DNA from: Candidatus Yanofskybacteria bacterium RIFCSPHIGHO2_01_FULL_43_32
Lineage (GTDB): Bacteria; Patescibacteriota; Minisyncoccia; 2-02-FULL-40-12; GWA2-44-9
DNA length: 40,319 nt
Reading direction: 5' to 3'
Assembly: GCA_001794125.1 (NCBI GenBank)
Contig: MGJF01000003.1
Location: forward strand, 22,114 to 62,432
Below the pieces are notes generated by a model. The model had not been told where the DNA came from and searched no databases. It worked only from the letters and a program-made list of their open reading frames with translations. Both the position numbers and the translations under genes were made by a program. Below are positions 4,203-25,566 of the stretch, piece after piece. The first letter of the stretch is position 1; each line of letters opens with the position of its first letter.

Positions 4203-4413
4203 TTTTTCGATTTATAATGATATAATATGGATATGAATAAAACTACCAAGTTAACTTTAGTGGTAATAATTCTGTGGGCTGTTTGGATAACGAGTAAAGT
4301 GATTGTTCTCGAGGCCTGGTCCAATCAGTTCCGGCTTGTTATTGAAGCCATAAATGGGTTTAAGTAAGGCGCAATCTTGCCCATTTTAGACCGTTTGGTT
4401 TCGAGGGTAACAC

Positions 4414-4526
4414 AATGCTTAAATTAACTGATAATTTGCTTAAATAACAAATTTTAGCCGGAAAATCCCCTTAGGGAGGAACGGATGCTAAAATTTGTTA
4501 AGCAAATTGAGATTAATTTAAGTATT
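4414..4526. repeat. Long imperfect inverted repeat upstream of nrdJ
   Basis: AATGCTTAAATTAACTGATAATTTGCTTAAATAACAAATTTTAGC (4414-4458) versus reverse complement of 4487-4526 (AATACTTAAATTAATCTCAATTTGCTTAACAAATTTTAGC). Confidence 0.7.
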
Positions 4527-4702
4527 TGTCCGAAGAAGACAATAAGTCGTAATCCAACAGGTCGAAAATGGGTGAGGGTGAGCATACTTATCAACTTTTT
4601 TGAGGCTTGAAATAAATTAAATAAATTTCTATAGTGAAGCACGCGAGTTGGCGTATGTTTTAAAATAATTTCCCGCCTTTAAGCGGGATTAAATCTTCTT
4701 TA

Positions 4703-7445: not shown

Positions 7446-7649
7446 CCAGTCCGTCTCTAATTTTGACCACCAGTCCTCGTCTTCAAAAATATACTTAGCT
7501 CATTTGGGATTTAAGCCAAAATAACAGGTAACCCTCTCTTGCCTCCTCACTTGAAGCTCGGCGTTCGACCTCGTTATTTTGGATAAATCCTTAATTCTCT
7601 TTCATATATTTTCTCATCCTCAGAAAAGGCAAAATCAGAGACGGGCTGG
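7446..7649. repeat. Nested inverted-repeat structure downstream of nrdJ
   Basis: Outer CCAGTCCGTCTCTAATTTT(7446)/AAAATCAGAGACGGGCTGG(7631); inner GGATTTAAGCCAAAATAAC(7507)/GTTATTTTGGATAAATCC(7573). Confidence 0.6.
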
Positions 7650-7707: not shown

Positions 7708-8295
7708 ATGAAAAATATTGAACATATTTTTATTGGAATAGTTGGTCCTTCTGGCTCAGGCAAAACAACCCTTTGCAAAAAGTTAAAATCACTTTTGAAG
7801 GACTGCGAGCATATAAGATTGGATAATTATTTCAAAGCATCTAAAACTTTTCCCAAGAAAGGTAATTTTCGAAACTGGGAATTACCCTCTAACTTAAAGT
7901 TCGATGTTCTCTTGAGAAATCTAAAATTATTGAAAAATGGTCAAAGTGTCCACACAAAAACATTTCCTAAAAAAGCAGGGGCTAAAAGCGAACCATTAAT
8001 CCTGAAACCAAAAAGAATAATTCTTATAGAAGGCTTCGTGCTTTTCGAAGATAAAAAGGTTAGAGAGATGTTAGACGTAAAAATATACTTGGATATCCAT
8101 CCAGAATTAATGCTAAAGCGTAGAGCAATAAGATTTGGGCCAACTCATATAAATGAATACGATACTAAAATCGCTATTCCAGAATTTCTGAAATACGGAG
8201 TAACTCAAAAGAAATATGCGGACTACATTATAGATGCCACTAAGGCACAACCTTCAGTTATTAAGAAAGTGCAAAAAATTATCAGTTTTCTATAG
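7708..8295 (+). CDS. Uridine kinase-like P-loop nucleoside kinase
   Basis: GPSGSGKTTLCKKL Walker A; LDNYFK; IILIEGFVLF; overall uridine kinase/PRK family pattern. Confidence 0.75.
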   Translation: MKNIEHIFIGIVGPSGSGKTTLCKKLKSLLKDCEHIRLDNYFKASKTFPKKGNFRNWELPSNLKFDVLLRNLKLLKNGQSVHTKTFPKKAGAKSEPLILKPKRIILIEGFVLFEDKKVREMLDVKIYLDIHPELMLKRRAIRFGPTHINEYDTKIAIPEFLKYGVTQKKYADYIIDATKAQPSVIKKVQKIISFL

Positions 8296-8348
8296 AGCGT
8301 AGCCCCATTGCTTTTATGTCACTTTGACGAGACGAGGAAACAGATGAA

Positions 8349-8470
8349 TTTGAACTTTTATTGCCAATTGCTATCTAACCACCTAAGCAACCGGCGGAGG
8401 TAGAACCATTTTTAAAAATCAGTAGTATTTTTAAAAATGGTTCTACGTAGCATGCATGGAGGTTGTGTGA
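8349..8470 (+). repeat. Dispersed structured repeat family A, copy 1
   Basis: TTTGAAC..TATTGCC..AAGCAACCGGCGGAG + perfect 20-bp hairpin (8400-8419/8427-8446) + GTAGCATGCATGGAGGTTGTGTGA; shared with 21785-21904 (-) and 25064-25182 (+). Confidence 0.85.
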
Positions 8471-8496
8471 ACGGTAAAACCTGATATCTTAATTTA

Positions 8497-9912
8497 ATGC
8501 ATAAATCGCAGATATTGTTTTATCTTCTCCTTGCTTTTATTTGCGGAGTTTTTGTTGCCTCCTTTTTGGCGATATCAGAAACATGGATACTGGTTTTTTT
8601 AATTTTCGCGATTGGTTTGATTACGATTTCGGGTTACCGGAAAACGTATTCAAAAAATGGCTTATTTGCGGGGGCGCTATTCTTTGTTTTTATTTTCGGC
8701 ATTATCAGGTTTAACTCGTTTAATCTTGCCAACAGTATTTTAAACCAGTTTGCCGATATTGAAGTTGGGGGAAAGGGTGTAGTGGTTACATTGACGGGAT
8801 ATGTAGATGAGGAGCCGGATGTAAACGGAGATAAATCCCAGATAGTTTTTAAAGTGAAAGAATTAATCGTTCCAGACAAAACATTGGTGGTTGACGAGCG
8901 GACGCTTATATATACCAACGCTTTTCCTAGATATAAATTTGGCGATAATCTTTCGGTAATTGGTGCGCTCAAAAGCCCCCAAAATTTTGTAGAAGATTTT
9001 GACTATGTTTCTTATTTAAAAAAACAAAACATAAGAACAGTTGTTTCCTTTCCAAAAGTAACAGAAATTAATGATTTAGATACAGGATTTTTTGAGAAGA
9101 CAAAGATAGGTTTATATAAAAAAATATTTGGATTAAAAAATAAATTTGAATCAGCTATTAATAAATCAATTTCAGAGCCGAATGCATCTTTCATAAACGG
9201 TATTTTATTGGGAAGCAGACAGAATATTCCTGAGGAAATAAAAGAGGCTTTCAATAAAACAGGCACGACTCATATTCTTGCCATCTCTGGCTATAATATA
9301 ATGATAATTTCCTGGGCTGTACTTTCTTTGTTGGTGTATTTTTTCAAAAGGCGGACGGCATTTTGGCTTTCAGTTGCGATAATAATTTTATTTACTATTT
9401 TGACTGGGGCTTCCTCGTCGGTCGTCCGCGCATCAATTATGGGATTGTTGCTGTTATTTGCCAATGGATATGGCCGTCTTTATGACCCAAAAAATTCTAT
9501 AATATTGGCCGGAGTGGCAATGATATGGTCCAATCCTTTTGCTTTGGTTTTTGATATCGGTTTTCAGCTTTCATTTGTGGCGGTTATCGGACTTATGTAT
9601 TTGTATCCGAGGATTGACAGTAAATTGAAAAAATTGCCCAAGCTTGGAAACTTAAAAGAAATGTTTTTGATGACTCTCTCGGCTCAAATAGCCGTAGCGC
9701 CTCTTTTGATATATTATTTCAAAAATTTCTCCCTTGTTTCTTTGCTTGCCAATATATTAATTCTTCCATTTCTGCCAGCGGCGATGTTTATCGGATTTAT
9801 TTCTGGTCTTGCGGGCGTGATATTTTTGCCCGTCGGACAAGTCGTTGGTTTTATCGCTTGGGCGATTACAACTTATCAGATTAAAATCATTGAGTTTCTC
9901 GCCTCGATATAA
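8497..9912 (+). CDS. comEC: ComEC/Rec2 competence membrane domain protein
   Basis: HILAISGYNIMIISW, LTGASSSVVRASIMGLL, GFQLSFVAVIGLMYLYP; multiple TM segments. Confidence 0.9.
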   Translation: MHKSQILFYLLLAFICGVFVASFLAISETWILVFLIFAIGLITISGYRKTYSKNGLFAGALFFVFIFGIIRFNSFNLANSILNQFADIEVGGKGVVVTLTGYVDEEPDVNGDKSQIVFKVKELIVPDKTLVVDERTLIYTNAFPRYKFGDNLSVIGALKSPQNFVEDFDYVSYLKKQNIRTVVSFPKVTEINDLDTGFFEKTKIGLYKKIFGLKNKFESAINKSISEPNASFINGILLGSRQNIPEEIKEAFNKTGTTHILAISGYNIMIISWAVLSLLVYFFKRRTAFWLSVAIIILFTILTGASSSVVRASIMGLLLLFANGYGRLYDPKNSIILAGVAMIWSNPFALVFDIGFQLSFVAVIGLMYLYPRIDSKLKKLPKLGNLKEMFLMTLSAQIAVAPLLIYYFKNFSLVSLLANILILPFLPAAMFIGFISGLAGVIFLPVGQVVGFIAWAITTYQIKIIEFLASI

Positions 9913-16557: not shown

Positions 16558-16631
16558 TCGGGCTGCCGGGATTCGAACCCGGAAAATCTCCTGCACCCCA
16601 TGCAGGCGTGTTACCGTTACACTACAGCCCG
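16558..16631 (-). tRNA. tRNA-Pro(GGG)
   Basis: Full cloverleaf on minus strand: CGGGCTG/CAGCCCG acceptor, GTGT/ACAC D stem, CCTGC-ATGGGGT-GCAGG anticodon arm, CCGGGTTCGAATCCCGG T arm, C1-G72 and A73; no encoded CCA. Confidence 0.92.
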
Positions 16632-16635
16632 ATAT

Positions 16636-17646
16636 TTACTCAAATATCTTTAATCCTATTTTCAACGCCTGATAAACCCCGTCGTTGTTATTGGCGGCCT
16701 CTTCGTCAAAGGAAAGTTTTAGTCCCTGCTTATCTGCGGGCGCGGTTTTGTCTTTTTTAACTTCAGCGATCAGCTCAAGAGCTTTTTCGTATTCTCTGGC
16801 AATTTCGGGCTGATTGTTTTTTGCCGCGAAATCGGAAAAAGTTTTCAACTGAAGTTCTATTTCGCCCAAGAATAACAACTGAACCCGGTGCTTAGCCAAT
16901 TTTGAAACGGCATCCTTTAAACGCGTCTCCATGGACTTTATTGATTCAGGAGATAATCCTCCGGATTTTTTATTTTCTTTTAATGCGCGCGATAAGCCGT
17001 GAATTTCCAGCCGCAATAAACCCAACTCTTTTATGGAAACCGCATCGGTCCCCACAACGACTTTCGGAACATTCGGAATTTCTTGTCTGGCTCCCTGGGA
17101 CGAAACAAAATATTTCACGTAAGCCATGCGGCCATTCCGTATATCGTTTTTTATTCTCTGAAACTTTTCTTCTAAAGAAGACACATTGGAAGTAACATCA
17201 ACGCTTAATCCCATTCGGGAATCCAGTTCGTCCGCCTTTTCTTTTTTAAAGAATTCTACGATCAGGTCAACGCCATTCTTGACATCGTCGTAGCGCGATG
17301 CGGTGATTGGCTTGGCCTCTCGTCCAAGCCAGTTGTCGTGGCCTATCTCATCCCAGGTTATGGCTTCAAGAAGTTCCGCCCGTCTTTTAAGGTGGGCCGT
17401 GTCGGGGTTTTCATCTTTTCTGAATTTATCCTCCATTCTTTCCACATACCTTGTGTCCTCGGCTATCATGTTCGCATCATAAAGACCTTCAAAAGCAGAA
17501 AGGTGAATGGCTGATCTTTTGTGGGCGGGTACGAGAAGCAAAAAAAGCTTTCTCTCCTCTTCGGAGAGCTGTTCCAGGCCTTGTTCGGATATCTCGAGTC
17601 GAGCCTGCGGTTTCGGTGGATGAGAAGGGGCTCTTTCTGTGACCAC
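16636..17646 (-). CDS. Hypothetical protein, CPR-type family with possible PD-(D/E)XK-like core
   Basis: SRYDDVKNGVDLIVEF...LSVDVTSN...EEKFQRIKNDI...VKYFVS...VPKVVVGTDAVSI pattern. Confidence 0.6.
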   Translation of the reverse strand: MVTERAPSHPPKPQARLEISEQGLEQLSEEERKLFLLLVPAHKRSAIHLSAFEGLYDANMIAEDTRYVERMEDKFRKDENPDTAHLKRRAELLEAITWDEIGHDNWLGREAKPITASRYDDVKNGVDLIVEFFKKEKADELDSRMGLSVDVTSNVSSLEEKFQRIKNDIRNGRMAYVKYFVSSQGARQEIPNVPKVVVGTDAVSIKELGLLRLEIHGLSRALKENKKSGGLSPESIKSMETRLKDAVSKLAKHRVQLLFLGEIELQLKTFSDFAAKNNQPEIAREYEKALELIAEVKKDKTAPADKQGLKLSFDEEAANNNDGVYQALKIGLKIFE

Positions 17647-19465: not shown

Positions 19466-19636
19466 AAACTTTTGTGTGCCTGGCTCATTCCGCCAAGCGG
19501 AATTACGAGCCGACGGCACCCTGAAGGGTTTGACTAATTTCTTCGTTAAAATCTCCGCTTAGTCCTCACCATAGTTTACTATGGCTCGGCCTAATGCTCG
19601 ATTTTGCCTCGAACTTAGCCAAACACAGAAGTTTTT
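19464..19636 (+). promoter_or_regulatory. Structured rpsG-fusA intergenic element
   Basis: Closing stem AAAAACTTTTGTGT(19464)/ACACAGAAGTTTTT(19623); internal ATTCCGCcaaGCGGAAT and CCATAGTttACTATGG hairpins. Confidence 0.55.
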
Positions 19637-19677: not shown

Positions 19678-21783
19678 ATGCGTGACTATGCTATAGATAA
19701 AACCAGAAATATCGGCATCATTGCTCATATAGATGCCGGAAAAACAACCGTTTCCGAAAGGGTGCTTTTTTATACCGGAGTTTCTCATAAAATAGGAGAA
19801 GTTCACGAAGGAGATACGGTTATGGATTGGATGGAACAGGAGAGAGAAAGAGGAATTACCATTACCTCGGCCGCCACGACTGCTTTCTGGACCCCGTTGG
19901 GATTGCCTAAAAATAAAGATAACGAATATAAATTTAACCTTATTGATACGCCGGGCCATATTGATTTTACCGTTGAAGTAAAACGCTCTTTGAGAGTATT
20001 GGACGGAGCGGTTGTGGTTTTTGACGGAGTGGCCGGGGTGGAGCCGCAGTCGGAAACGAATTGGCGCTATGCCGACGATTACAAAGTGCCGAGGATTTGT
20101 TTTATCAACAAGTTGGACCGCCTCGGCGCTTCTTTCGAAAGATCTTACCAGTCCATTCTTGCTCGGTTGACTCCCAATGCCGTCAGAATGCAGATACCCG
20201 ACGGAGAAGAGGACCAGTTTAAGGGAGTGGCCGATCTTTTGACCCAGAAATATTATGTTTTTGAAGGCGAGCACGGAGAAAGAGTGCTTGAACAACCGAT
20301 TCCGGAACACATCGCGGGAAAAGTAAAAGAGCTTCACGGGGTTTTAGTTGAGAAGATCGTTGAGAACGATGACGAGGCCATGAGCCAATATCTTGAAGGA
20401 AAAGAAATCCCGGCAGAAAAATTAAAAGAAATTTTGAGAAAAGCTACTATTGAGAATAAAATAGTTCCAGTTTTTACCGGTTCGGCCCTTAAAAACAAGG
20501 GAGTTCAATTCATGCTTGATGCCGTTGTTTATTATCTGCCTTCGCCGGTTGATTTGCCTCCTTTAATGGCGCATGACGCCAAAACAGGTGAAGAAGTAAG
20601 ATGCGAACCATTAGACGACACTCCTTTTGCGGCCCTTGCTTTTAAGGTTGCCACTGACCCCTACATGGGCCAGCTGACATTCTTCCGTGTTTATTCCGGG
20701 ACTTTAAATACCGGGTCTTATGTATTGAATACAACAAGCAATCAGCAGGAGCGCATCAGCCGCTTAGTCCGGATGCATGCTAATGAAAGAAAAGAAATTA
20801 AAGACGTATTGGCCGGAGATATTGTGGCAACAGTAGGAATGAAAGCCACAAGAACAGGAGACACTCTTTGCGATCCCGACCATCCGGTTGTTTTGGAGAG
20901 AATTGAATTTCCGGAACCGGTTATTTCTTTGCGCATAGAACCGAAGACCAAAGCCGACCAGGAAAAGATGGGTATATCTTTGAAAAAATTATCAGACGAA
21001 GACCCGACTTTCAAAATAAGGAGCGACGAAGAAACCGCGGAAACAATTATTTCCGGAATGGGAGAATTGCACTTGGAAATTATCGTTGACCGCATGAAGA
21101 GAGAATTCGGGGTCAATGTAAATGTCGGCCGGCCGCAGGTTGCCTACAAAGAGACAATTTCCGACAAATCCCAAGCTGAAGGCAAATATATCAAACAATC
21201 CGGAGGCCGCGGACAATACGGCCATGTTTGGCTGCGCGTTGAACCGAAAGAACGGGGAGCCGGATTTGAATTTATTGATGCCATCAAAGGCGGATCCATT
21301 CCCGAAGAATTTATTACCCCGGTTGAAAAAGGTGTTAAAGAGGCGTTGGACAAGGGAGTTATCGCCGGTTTTCCGGTGGTAGATATGCAAGTTACTTTAT
21401 ACGACGGTTCTTACCATGAAGTCGACTCGTCTGAAATTGCTTTCAAAATTGCCGGAACTATGGCGCTTCAGGAGGCCATCAAAAGAGCAAAACCCATCCT
21501 GCTGGAACCTATCATGAAGGTTGAGATTATCGTCCCCGATTCTTTTATGGGTGAGGCCACCGGAGATATCGCGTCACGAAGAGGCCAAGTATTAGGTATT
21601 AACGACAGGAGTCCGATGAATTTGAAGGTCATTGACGCCAGAGTTCCATTGTCGGAAATGTTCGGTTACGCTACTTCGGTAAGGTCCTTGACTGAAGGAC
21701 GCGGCACGTTTAATATGGAATTCGACCACTACGAACCCGTGCCGAATAATATGGTTGAACTTATCAAAGAAGGAAAGAAATAG
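19678..21783 (+). CDS. fusA: Elongation factor G
   Basis: NIGIIAHIDAGKTTVSERVLFYTG; ERERGITITSAATTAFW; DTPGHIDFTVEV. Confidence 0.98.
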   Translation: MRDYAIDKTRNIGIIAHIDAGKTTVSERVLFYTGVSHKIGEVHEGDTVMDWMEQERERGITITSAATTAFWTPLGLPKNKDNEYKFNLIDTPGHIDFTVEVKRSLRVLDGAVVVFDGVAGVEPQSETNWRYADDYKVPRICFINKLDRLGASFERSYQSILARLTPNAVRMQIPDGEEDQFKGVADLLTQKYYVFEGEHGERVLEQPIPEHIAGKVKELHGVLVEKIVENDDEAMSQYLEGKEIPAEKLKEILRKATIENKIVPVFTGSALKNKGVQFMLDAVVYYLPSPVDLPPLMAHDAKTGEEVRCEPLDDTPFAALAFKVATDPYMGQLTFFRVYSGTLNTGSYVLNTTSNQQERISRLVRMHANERKEIKDVLAGDIVATVGMKATRTGDTLCDPDHPVVLERIEFPEPVISLRIEPKTKADQEKMGISLKKLSDEDPTFKIRSDEETAETIISGMGELHLEIIVDRMKREFGVNVNVGRPQVAYKETISDKSQAEGKYIKQSGGRGQYGHVWLRVEPKERGAGFEFIDAIKGGSIPEEFITPVEKGVKEALDKGVIAGFPVVDMQVTLYDGSYHEVDSSEIAFKIAGTMALQEAIKRAKPILLEPIMKVEIIVPDSFMGEATGDIASRRGQVLGINDRSPMNLKVIDARVPLSEMFGYATSVRSLTEGRGTFNMEFDHYEPVPNNMVELIKEGKK

Positions 21784-21784
21784 C

Positions 21785-21904
21785 TCACACAACCTCTATG
21801 TATGCTGCGTAGCGCACTTTTCTGAAATCTACTAATTTCATAAAAGCACGCTACCTCCGCCGGTTGCTTAGTAAGCAGATGATGACTGGCAATAGGGGTT
21901 CAAA
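21785..21904 (-). repeat. Dispersed structured repeat family A, copy 2 (inverted)
   Basis: Minus strand TTTGAACCCCTATTGCC...AAGCAACCGGCGGAGGTAGCGTGCTTTTATGAAATtagtagATTTCAGAAAAGTGCGCTACGCAGCATACATAGAGGTTGTGTGA. Confidence 0.85.
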
Positions 21905-21972
21905 GTTTCTCTGAAATAAAGTGGGGTGCTGTGTTTGATTTTTATCTTAAAACCTGCGATAATTCCAGTTAA

Positions 21973-24654
21973 ATGGATAAAAACCAGGCTAAACTCACAA
22001 TTCAAAAACTCGTAGAAAAGCATGAGGAAGTTTTAAGGTCCGGTAAGGCTAAAACATACACAGAAGAAGATACTAAAAAGGGATTTATCGTCCCGCTTTT
22101 TTCTGCGCTTGGGTGGGACATGGAAGATAGAAATGAAGTCACATCCGAAGAGCATATTTCTGGCGACAGGGTGGATTATGGATTTTATGTCAATGGCCGC
22201 CCTAAATTTTATTTAGAAGCGAAACCTTTTAAGGCTGATTTGAATAATGCCAAGTATGCCCGACAAGCAATAAAGTATTCTTGGAACAAGGGTGTAACTT
22301 GGGCAGTTCTTACCGACTTTGAAAGTATCAAAGTTTTCAACGCCGATTTTCAGGCAGAAGAACTGGCTCATAGCAAATTCTTTGAAATTTCTTACGACAA
22401 GTATCTTGACGATTTTGATCGCCTTTGGCTTTTATCCAAAGAATCTTTTGAGAATGGTGATATGGATAAAAAGGCAGAAGAATGGGGGAAGTCCTTAAAA
22501 CGAGCATCTGTTACCGACGCTCTTTATAAGGACCTAACGGAATGTCGTAAACTTTTGACTGACAGCTTAAGACGCTGGAATGAAAAAGTGCCGGAGGACT
22601 TGCTTGATGAAGGTGTGCAAAAACTTTTAAATCGCCTTGTTTTTATTAGGGTTTTAGAAGACAGGAATATTGAACCCCAGATATTAAAAACCATTGTGCG
22701 GGAATGGGGGGCGGGGCATTATGATAAAAGTCGGCCTCCGCTCTACTTGTCATTAGTGAAAAAATTTAGAGAACTTGATGTCCAATATAATTCTAATCTT
22801 TTTGATGAGCATCCTTTTGAAACATGGGAAGAACACGACAATTATACCAAAAAAGTCATAGATATTTTATATGGAAAATCGGGATATTATGAATATGACT
22901 TTAAGATTATGCCAGCCGATATATTAGGTGCCGTATATGAGAATTATTTAGGATATAAATTAGAACAATTAAAGAAAGGTAGCAAGATTGGTCAGGACTC
23001 TAAAAAACGCAAAGAGCACGGAATTTACTACACGCCGGAATTTATTGTTGATTACATTATAAAAAACGCGCTTAGGCCAGTCCTGGAACAATGCGAAACC
23101 ATAGATGAGTTGATGAAAGTAAAAGTCCTTGACCCGGCATGCGGTTCGGGGTCATTTCTTATTAAAGCGGTTGATGCCATCTATCAGAGATATTGTGAGA
23201 TGAGCTTTCGCGGTTCGCCTACATATAAAAAAATTCAGATTATCACTCAAAACATTTATGGTGTAGACCTGGATTCACAAGCGGTTGAAATTGCCCGATT
23301 AAACCTTCTTATCAATGCCGTAGAAGAAAAAATTCTTTTGCCTTCGTTAGCGAAGAATATTAAAAACGGCAACTCGCTTATTTCTGGCACGGACGAAGAA
23401 CTCAAAAAATATTTCGGCAATAATTTTCGTGAAAAAAAGCCATTCAACTGGCGAGAAGAATTTCCAGAAGTTTTTAAACGGGGTGGTTTTGATGTCATAA
23501 TCGGTAATCCTCCTTGGGGTGCCAATTTAGAAAGCAATGAAAAAGATTTTTATAAAAATTTATTTGTAACTGGCATAGGTATAGTAGATACATTCGCCTT
23601 ATTTGTAGAGAGGTCTACAAAATTTTTAAAAGATAGTGGGAAACTAGGTCTCGTATTACCAGACATAGTCCTCTTAAAAAATTATCCCAATGTAAGAAAA
23701 TTGATTCTCGATAACTTTCTAATATCACACATTTATTATACGGGTATGGCATTTCAGGGCGTAAATTTAGATTCAGTGGTCTTGATTTTCCAAAAAGAAA
23801 ATCAAGAAAAAATAAGAAATAATAACAATATTTCAGTGCTTATTGATAAAGAAGAGGGCAAGATTAAACAAACAGTTTTTCTTGAAAATAAAGACTATAA
23901 ATTTAATTTGCGTTTAAATCCTATAGTATTAAACTTTAAAGAAAAACTTGATGCATGTTCCATCAAGCTTGGGACTATTTTAGAAATTCACGAGGGTATA
24001 CACTCTGGAAATATAAGAGAAAAATTATTTACAGATTCACAAACATCGGGTAAGTCAAAAAAGCTTCTCTTCAAAGGGGTGGAAATAAATCGTTATTTTG
24101 AAAGCTGGGCTGGAAAATTTGTCAATTACGATAAGAGTGTAATCAATAAAGCAGCTGGCGAATATGCCAATCTAGGCAAAGACGAGTACTTTAGTAATGA
24201 AAAGATTTTGGTTAGAAGGACTGGAGATAAAATTATTGCTACCATAGACCGGGATGGTTACTTTGTAAGTAATAACTTTTTTGTTCTATACAAGAAGAAT
24301 TCGGATGACAAAATTAGCTTGAAATTTATTTTGGCGATACTAAATTCTGGTATAGGAACTTGGTATTTTTTAGCCATACAACCTCGGAAGGGTAAATTGT
24401 TTGCTGAGATAAAAATAAATCACCTTGCTGAAATACCAATACCAAAATTAAACCTTGAGAACAAACACATAGAGATAGTTAATTTAGTCGATCGGATGAC
24501 AGAGCTACAAAAAAATATACACTCCATGGAAGAGAATTCTAACGAATGGGGTCGATTAAAATCTGAAATCGAAAAAACTGATAAACAAATAGACCAAAAA
24601 GTTTACGAATTATACGGATTAACAGACGAAGAAATTAAAATCGTGGAAAAGTGA
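21973..24654 (+). CDS. Type IIG-like restriction-modification enzyme (N6-adenine methyltransferase with N-terminal nuclease-like domain)
   Basis: N-terminal GDRVDYGFYVNGRPKFYLEAK (D..ExK); DPACGSGSFLIKAVDAIY (motif I), IIGNPPWGANL (NPPW); C-terminal target recognition-like region. Confidence 0.88.
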   Translation: MDKNQAKLTIQKLVEKHEEVLRSGKAKTYTEEDTKKGFIVPLFSALGWDMEDRNEVTSEEHISGDRVDYGFYVNGRPKFYLEAKPFKADLNNAKYARQAIKYSWNKGVTWAVLTDFESIKVFNADFQAEELAHSKFFEISYDKYLDDFDRLWLLSKESFENGDMDKKAEEWGKSLKRASVTDALYKDLTECRKLLTDSLRRWNEKVPEDLLDEGVQKLLNRLVFIRVLEDRNIEPQILKTIVREWGAGHYDKSRPPLYLSLVKKFRELDVQYNSNLFDEHPFETWEEHDNYTKKVIDILYGKSGYYEYDFKIMPADILGAVYENYLGYKLEQLKKGSKIGQDSKKRKEHGIYYTPEFIVDYIIKNALRPVLEQCETIDELMKVKVLDPACGSGSFLIKAVDAIYQRYCEMSFRGSPTYKKIQIITQNIYGVDLDSQAVEIARLNLLINAVEEKILLPSLAKNIKNGNSLISGTDEELKKYFGNNFREKKPFNWREEFPEVFKRGGFDVIIGNPPWGANLESNEKDFYKNLFVTGIGIVDTFALFVERSTKFLKDSGKLGLVLPDIVLLKNYPNVRKLILDNFLISHIYYTGMAFQGVNLDSVVLIFQKENQEKIRNNNNISVLIDKEEGKIKQTVFLENKDYKFNLRLNPIVLNFKEKLDACSIKLGTILEIHEGIHSGNIREKLFTDSQTSGKSKKLLFKGVEINRYFESWAGKFVNYDKSVINKAAGEYANLGKDEYFSNEKILVRRTGDKIIATIDRDGYFVSNNFFVLYKKNSDDKISLKFILAILNSGIGTWYFLAIQPRKGKLFAEIKINHLAEIPIPKLNLENKHIEIVNLVDRMTELQKNIHSMEENSNEWGRLKSEIEKTDKQIDQKVYELYGLTDEEIKIVEK

Positions 24655-24777: not shown

Positions 24778-24850
24778 GGGCCGGTAGTATTAACAGTTAA
24801 AATAGTTAGCTGATACCTAAAAGATACGGGTGCAAGTCCCGTCCGGTCCA
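24778..24850 (+). tRNA. tRNA-like sequence, anticodon GAU (Ile) if functional; degenerate or tRNA mimic
   Basis: 73 nt; acceptor GGGCCGG/CCGGTCC + A; T arm ACGGG-TGCAAGT-CCCGT; anticodon arm TTAG-CTGATAC-CTAA; atypical D loop and T loop (G at 55). Confidence 0.5.
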
Positions 24851-25027: not shown

Positions 25028-25063
25028 CTTAACTATCATAGCCCATATCTTATTTCAGGCGAG

Positions 25064-25182
25064 TTTGAACTTTTATTGCCGATTGTTACCTACCACCCAA
25101 CCAACCGGCAGAGGGGGTGTGCTTTTTTAAAATCAGTAGTATTTTTAAAAAGTGCACCCCGCAGCATGCGTAGAGGTTGTAG
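25064..25182 (+). repeat. Dispersed structured repeat family A, copy 3
   Basis: TTTGAACTTTTATTGCC...CCAACCGGCAGAGGGGGTGTGCTTTTTTAAAATcagtagtATTTTTAAAAAGTGCACCCCGCAGCATGCGTAGAGGTTGT. Confidence 0.85.
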
Positions 25183-25239
25183 GGTGCTATCTGAAATGAA
25201 GTTGCATTTTTTTGAATATTTTAATAATATACTCCAGTA

Positions 25240-25566
25240 ATGAACATAGACGAACTAAAAAAATTAGTTAAGCATTCTACGGCGGTTTTAGTGCTGGATA
25301 ACGGAGAGCCGTCTTTTGCGATTTTAAGCTATGAGATGTATAAGGATCTTGTTTTGGGCGGAAAAGAAAAGGAAATCAAGATAAATCACACAGTTACTAA
25401 TGGAATAAGCCAAAAAGAAAACATAATTCCTCCTGCAAAACCCACACTTCCCGACAACGAGCTCGAGATACTAGAAAGGATAAATAAGGATATATTGGCT
25501 TTACAGAGTGAGATAGAGAAAGAGGAAAAATTGGTGGCAGTTGATCCCTCACCTTTCGTGGATTAA
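25240..25566 (+). CDS. Small hypothetical protein, possible Phd/YefM-like N-terminus
   Basis: MNIDELKKLVKHSTAVLVLDNGEPSFAILSYEMYKDLV; weak resemblance only. Confidence 0.5.
   Translation: MNIDELKKLVKHSTAVLVLDNGEPSFAILSYEMYKDLVLGGKEKEIKINHTVTNGISQKENIIPPAKPTLPDNELEILERINKDILALQSEIEKEEKLVAVDPSPFVD

Follow-up and report, generated by a model that had tools for sequence, protein, structure and literature searches.

Few mobile elements are known from the reduced genomes of Patescibacteria, yet even close relatives among them differ in accessory genes such as restriction-modification systems. In a window of 40,319 nucleotides (the whole stretch of DNA analysed here) from the 762-kb genome of a Candidatus Yanofskybacteria bacterium (G000), a short sequence with a hairpin, designated repeat A, occurs three times. 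The question raised by this locus is whether repeat A is a non-coding RNA or a mobile element, the two possibilities named in a preliminary description of this DNA. Repeat A is probably a terminal part of small gene cassettes that can be exchanged, and not a new regulatory RNA. A polarised repeat at the boundary of accessory genes would offer a handle on their entry and exit, and repeat A could serve as a marker for mapping cassettes over many genomes.

Repeat A in the window, the genome and its relatives

Profile matches place the three copies at the positions and on the strands at which they had been described.

8347..8480, + strand: repeat A copy 1 (its left end, at 8348, is GTTTGA-like and its right end falls at about 8480; profile match 8347-8470)
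8400..8446, + strand: variable central hairpin of copy 1, GTAGAACCATTTTT..AAAAATGGTTCTAC
21785..21906, - strand: repeat A copy 2 (profile match with the same limits)
21809..21854, - strand: variable central hairpin of copy 2, GTAGCGTGC..GTGCGCTAC
25062..25190, + strand: repeat A copy 3 (profile match 25062-25185)
25114..25160, + strand: variable central hairpin of copy 3, GGGGTGTGC..GTGCACCCC

The three stems had also been given correctly except for a few wobbles, and the motifs described as common are present in all three copies, although only approximately, copy 1 having GTAGCATGCATGGAGGTTGT (two differences) and copy 3 having CCAACCGGCAGAG and GCAGCATGCGTAGAGGTTGT. The consensus of repeat A is [A]GTTTGAACYTTTATTGCCAATTGTCANCTANNACCNAAGCAACCGGCGGAG-hairpin-GCAG(T)CATGCATRGAGGTTGTGTGARCTATT, with a length of about 127-135 bp and GGTTGTGTGAACTATT as the sequence of the right end. 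Its ends are crisp, because sequence information drops steeply on either side.

The repeat is real, and its family extends beyond the three copies. The genome sequence was studied as stretches around repeat A matches. A 20-mer of the right frame, with at most 3 mismatches, is found 12 times in the genome and 0 times for a reversed control, and a 14-mer of the left frame, with at most 2 mismatches, 42 times versus 9 for the control. A covariance model was built from 29 copies, which fit it by construction, and about 34 copies score above the cut-off of 44 bits in the 762-kb genome, three of them in the window. This frequency is far beyond chance. The search of other Patescibacteria with such a model, proposed in the preliminary description, yields further copies in relatives: about 10 in a congener (G001), about 5 and 3 in two genomes of another genus, and one each in a genome of another family of the order and a genome of another family of the class, where the class-wide search scored few candidates per genome and copies may be missed. 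The match in G032 was obtained with the first model only. No copies were found in the remaining relatives searched with the models, and the copy number among relatives ranges from 0 up to 34.

Named database records with repeat A belong to Candidatus Yanofskybacteria. Two named proteobacterial pattern matches are apparently due to chance, the rest of the frame being absent. No match was found in viral contigs or in plasmid and phage collections, the latter two queried with copy 1. In the window and seven related loci, Rfam called only tRNAs and no family for repeat A above the gathering cut-off, in agreement with the earlier failure to recognise a named family, and the matches of copy 1 in a permissive Rfam search are far under the cut-off. 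A literature search turned up no description of such an element for this group of bacteria. Between copies, similarity over 130 bp is only about 77%. In one genome (G013), three near-identical copies of 198 nt, two of them identical, lie in unrelated contexts, which speaks for continued dispersal.

The fold of repeat A

The central hairpin had been described as co-varying, and an alignment of 24 copies bears this out: 12 of the 19 pairs of the central stem have changes on both sides, 54 cells over the whole structure are changed on both sides (14.8 +/- 3.7 in shuffles), and pairing holds in 91.9% of cells versus 39-57% at slid registers. Stem position 5 is TA, AT or CG in 15, 13 and 6 copies, and position 6 is GC, CG or AT in 16, 11 and 7 copies. 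The outer helix, GAACYYYYAU/AURGAGGUU, is paired in 85% of cells (34-55% when slid). Its own partners pair no better than exchanged partners, because the right side hardly varies. In the other genus, however, the outer helix is re-paired with other letters, as ACCUUUCUC/GAGGGAGGU in L129 and as CUUCUCGA/UCGGGAAG in L128. A further helix at the left end, TTGCC/GGCGG, reaches 95% pairing in this genus solely through wobbles and is not claimed, because it is absent in the other genus. Mutual information between columns was likewise discarded as evidence for pairing, since it mostly reflects subfamilies.

Within the constant frame, whole hairpins are swapped. Among the forms are AT-rich loops; L073, L085 and L086 have TTTGTATACAAA as a perfect palindrome, and the inner domain is larger in a form of 190 nt (L070 and L080-L082). 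In L031 and L084 the hairpin is lost between GGAG repeats. In L031, L084, L073 and L086 it is lost or replaced outright. The inner domain of the 190-nt form (L070, L080, L081 and L082), CCCAAAGAAGAACGTTCGCAGGCGGGTAGCCGAGATAGAGC..GCGGTCTTCGTGGG, is conserved and common to two species, and could be a separate nested element.

The compensated stem would be expected of a structured RNA, a regulatory or processing signal with its fold under selection. Wobbles in the outer helix point the same way, as T.G occurs in 75 cells and C.A in 10, favouring the written strand. The central stem, on the other hand, has wobbles of both kinds (G.T in 35 cells and A.C in 13), and both strands of repeat A fold about equally well, ahead of most shuffles (z -1.7 to -4.7), so that RNA and single-stranded DNA are not separated by these features. 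Template-switch repair of palindromes could keep the arms matched in the absence of RNA selection. The earlier argument that the pattern is not simple duplication is right as far as the joint change of the paired arms goes, although such repair could give the same result.

Orientation, polarity and cargo

Copies of repeat A are intergenic and dispersed, and the strands of the genes to their left and right are -/- in 14 cases, +/+ in 11, +/- in 6 and -/+ in 5. The orientation to neighbouring genes is thus random, which excludes a role as leader, riboswitch or terminator. No conserved promoter or terminator was found in the flanks beyond the crisp ends. Insertion specifically 3' of terminators was also considered: a terminator-like hairpin lies to the left on the same strand in 20 of 36 cases and in 10-13 at each of the other three positions, which is not decisive. 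Random orientation, the lack of a conserved promoter or terminator, the folding of both strands, the dispensable hairpin and the jumps in copy number from 0 to 34 between relatives weaken the non-coding RNA of the preliminary description and leave the mobile element as the favoured half of that proposal. A structured RNA is highly unlikely on this evidence.

To conserved chromosome, in contrast to genes, repeat A has a fixed relation. G000 and G001 were aligned around 36 copies, 24 of which have usable syntenic blocks. The intergenic junctions are not base-exact, because G001 is only about 75-85% identical to G000. Of the 24 right ends, 20 have a syntenic block within 100 bp, as have 2 of the left ends, and the right end is the nearer one by 21:3 (Wilcoxon p 6e-4), in a single genome pair with regions picked partly for a repeat A copy in both genomes and with some slots counted from both sides, each slot counted once giving about 15 independent boundaries. 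Three further copies in C4, tested after the hypothesis had been formed, all agree: the gap is 5, 184 and 109 bp on the right and 8645, 1112 and 1187 bp on the left. Right ends often begin directly past the stop codon of a backbone gene: that of copy 2 (21785) is immediately 3' of the TAG stop of the gene at 19678-21783. The right end of copy 1 abuts the backbone gene at 8497-9912, and that of copy 3 faces the backbone gene at 25240-25566. Neighbouring copies are inverted with their left ends inward in 6 of 6 cases when less than 1 kb apart and in 7 of 8 when less than 2 kb apart, and none of 20,000 orientation shuffles matched the seven such pairs below 2 kb. Repeat A is therefore polarised: the conserved chromosome nearly always lies at its right end and the cargo at its left.

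Repeat A might be an ordinary MITE that spreads alone into intergenic regions, its link to cargo arising from variable slots that tolerate insertions. Copies are indeed intergenic, dispersed and often single, and those of the two congeners occupy different spots within a shared gene neighbourhood. Independent insertion, however, explains neither the facing of right ends to the backbone nor the inverted pairs with left ends inward, and this explanation is unlikely, though it deserves to be taken seriously.

The cargo in the window, and a second repeat at the edge of one cargo, are the following.

21973..24654, + strand: type IIG-like restriction-modification gene, 893 aa (Eco57I, N6_Mtase, TaqI_C and HSDR_N matches), between the inverted copies 2 and 3
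24778..24850, + strand: tRNA gene, also between copies 2 and 3
7708..8295, + strand: gene for a P-loop protein of 195 aa (phosphoribulokinase/uridine kinase family), cargo to the left of copy 1
7502..7598, + strand: repeat family B, a framed hairpin, at the far end of the cargo of copy 1

Neither the restriction-modification gene nor the kinase-like gene was found at the syntenic place in G001. An N6_N4 methylase and an MjaI endonuclease lie between the copies of another pair. Other cargo includes an NADAR/gp30.3 protein, a DUF218-like protein (under the cut-off) and small unknown proteins. Inverted pairs are spaced 0.35-3.2 kb apart, and many cassettes have only one visible copy. Cargo bounded by two copies is found in one congener and is absent or different in the other. 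The C9 slot measures 802 bp with element and cargo versus 42 bp without, the slot at G001 C2:1069 about 500 bp versus 8 bp, and the slot of the C4 pair 1428 bp versus about 420 bp. In a slot common to both species, C8:22987-23700 (copies at 22987/23569) and G001 C2:21559-22300 (copies at 21559/22179), each has two inverted copies around unrelated cargo.

The C2 restriction-modification cassette and its counterpart in G001 C14 likewise occupy one slot with unrelated cargo, and repeat A is at the same edge in the same orientation. This arrangement would also result if cargo were exchanged by homologous recombination between copies of repeat A and conserved flanking genes (for example after DNA uptake), with repeat A merely carried along. 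Such passive exchange gives no account of the first spread to about 34 places or of the kept pairing, and copies about 77% alike over 130 bp are poor homology arms; it appears distinctly unlikely.

With slightly better than even confidence, repeat A is regarded as a non-autonomous, ERIC/MITE-like mobile element that forms the outer boundary of exchangeable gene cassettes. It is an imperfect palindrome of about 127-135 bp whose constant frame is asymmetric and whose central hairpin can be swapped, set at the outer edge of a cassette with its right end to the chromosome and its left end to the cargo. Many cassettes have two inverted copies with left ends inward, like a composite transposon made of MITEs. 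A transposase or recombinase acting in trans would recognise the folded or inverted ends and move either the element alone or a pair together with its cargo. The hairpin would persist for its role in recognition, which more likely takes place in DNA than in RNA.

Relation to known mobile elements

Like MITEs, repeat A is short, non-coding, dispersed and intergenic, and has no transposase. Its ends pair imperfectly as inverted repeats (mean score 14.4 versus 12.7 in shuffles), the terminal arms of the best copy matching at 16 of 17 positions, and no convincing excess of matching flanks, as expected of a target-site duplication, was found at any boundary offset tested. Prokaryotic MITEs including ERIC have been reviewed (PMC10969869), and 127-bp repeat units are described in enterobacteria (PMC2759123). 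Repeat A resembles their description in its length of about 127 bp, imperfect palindrome, intergenic location in both orientations, tens of copies, and internal insertions and deletions. It differs in that no target duplication was found and that its terminal repeats are weak. To our knowledge, no polarity to backbone and cargo has been described for ERIC.

Mobile insertion cassettes (MICs) have a passenger gene between inverted ends and no transposase gene. The cassettes of repeat A share this organisation, but the ends of MICs are short repeats of a known IS, whereas those here are framed hairpins of 130 bp with no known IS. The term MIC occurs in passages of PMC2266710 and PMC6542083. Composite structures bounded by Tn3-derived MITEs have been termed TIME-COMPs (PMC13367494). 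These also have two MITE copies around cargo genes, and are moved by a transposase in trans. The likeness is one of layout, and a transposase acting on repeat A is putative. Pairs of TIMEs are direct or inverted and mostly plasmid-borne, whereas close pairs of repeat A are almost only inverted and lie on chromosomal contigs.

REPs and REPINs, which are associated with TnpA-REP (PMC3116915; PMC8266576), resemble repeat A in their palindromes and inverted pairs, and Y1 genes are present in every genome with repeat A that was checked (6 of 6, versus 8 of 19 genomes without it). REPs, however, are 20-40 bp long, have a GTAG or CGTC tag and are closely spaced, whereas repeat A is 130 bp long with pairs 0.35-3.2 kb apart. 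The genome has two Y1/RAYT-like genes, and no copies or ends of repeat A are found beside them, unlike the REP palindromes that flank a RAYT gene, so that repeat A is not a member of this class. A tree of Y1 proteins has no clade specific to repeat A. An attachment of repeat A to Y1/RAYT genes was therefore rejected. The sole tyrosine recombinase in G000, as in G001, is XerD-like (by sequence, judged by eye), and none of the Y1/RAYT and tyrosine recombinase genes examined is tied to repeat A.

The frame with a variable hairpin at the cargo edge is also reminiscent of integron attC sites. In an integron-like, site-specific recombination, repeat A and the framed hairpins B and C would act as attC-like sites. 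A short helix, an unpaired asymmetric stretch and a variable terminal hairpin fit this, as do the unrelated single-gene cassettes bounded by repeat A and the presence of B at the other cargo end in two slots. The boxes of attC have the consensus RYYYAAC and GTTRRRY. Repeat A has AAGCAAC and GTTGTGT, which do not fit this consensus. No integron integrase was found, only the one XerD-like recombinase in each of G000 and G001, and the copies are dispersed and inverted without attC boxes or an array. Integron-like recombination is thus extremely improbable. A cassette exchange specific to some Patescibacteria, in which framed-hairpin families (A, B and perhaps others) serve a putative enzyme as polarised recombination boundaries of single-gene cassettes, is a tentative and rather unlikely idea. 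MITE-bounded composites are already known (PMC13367494). Repeat A fits best as a new ERIC/MITE-like family in Patescibacteria, one whose role as a polarised boundary of cassettes is unusual.

Several other repeats are found besides repeat A. The hairpin of family B is CCAAAATAAC..GTTATTTTGG, and its full copies lie at window 7502-7598 and at G000:C9:20754-20844. Both full copies examined sit at the cargo end opposite repeat A, in two slots with a single copy of the latter. Family C (window 19530-19631) is an imperfect palindrome of about 100 nt, GTTTGACTAA..TTAGCCAAAC, present at at least seven places in G000 and G001. Family D (window 4369-4584), a palindromic repeat of about 215 bp, is found at at least eight places in the two genomes, and in G001 it occupies two slots where G000 has cassettes bounded by repeat A. 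The short repeat E (window 8297-8335), TTGCTTTTATGTCACTTTGACGAGACGAGG, of about 39 nt, adjoins copy 1, and is fused to the frame of a 190-nt copy of repeat A at G000:C2:119557-119747. A 27-bp palindrome, CAACGGCTCACATATGTGAGCCGTTGA, often lies just outside the left end of repeat A (G000 C9:20420-20446, C4:26420-26446 and C3:12564-12590) and is possibly a bidirectional terminator. A hairpin repeat of about 80 nt (GCACCAAGCTAATCCGCTGACCGCCATT..; L178 at about 16615-16700, corresponding to G000:C4:27615-27700) lies to the right of at least three copies of repeat A, and at C4 it has a short direct repeat on its flanks.
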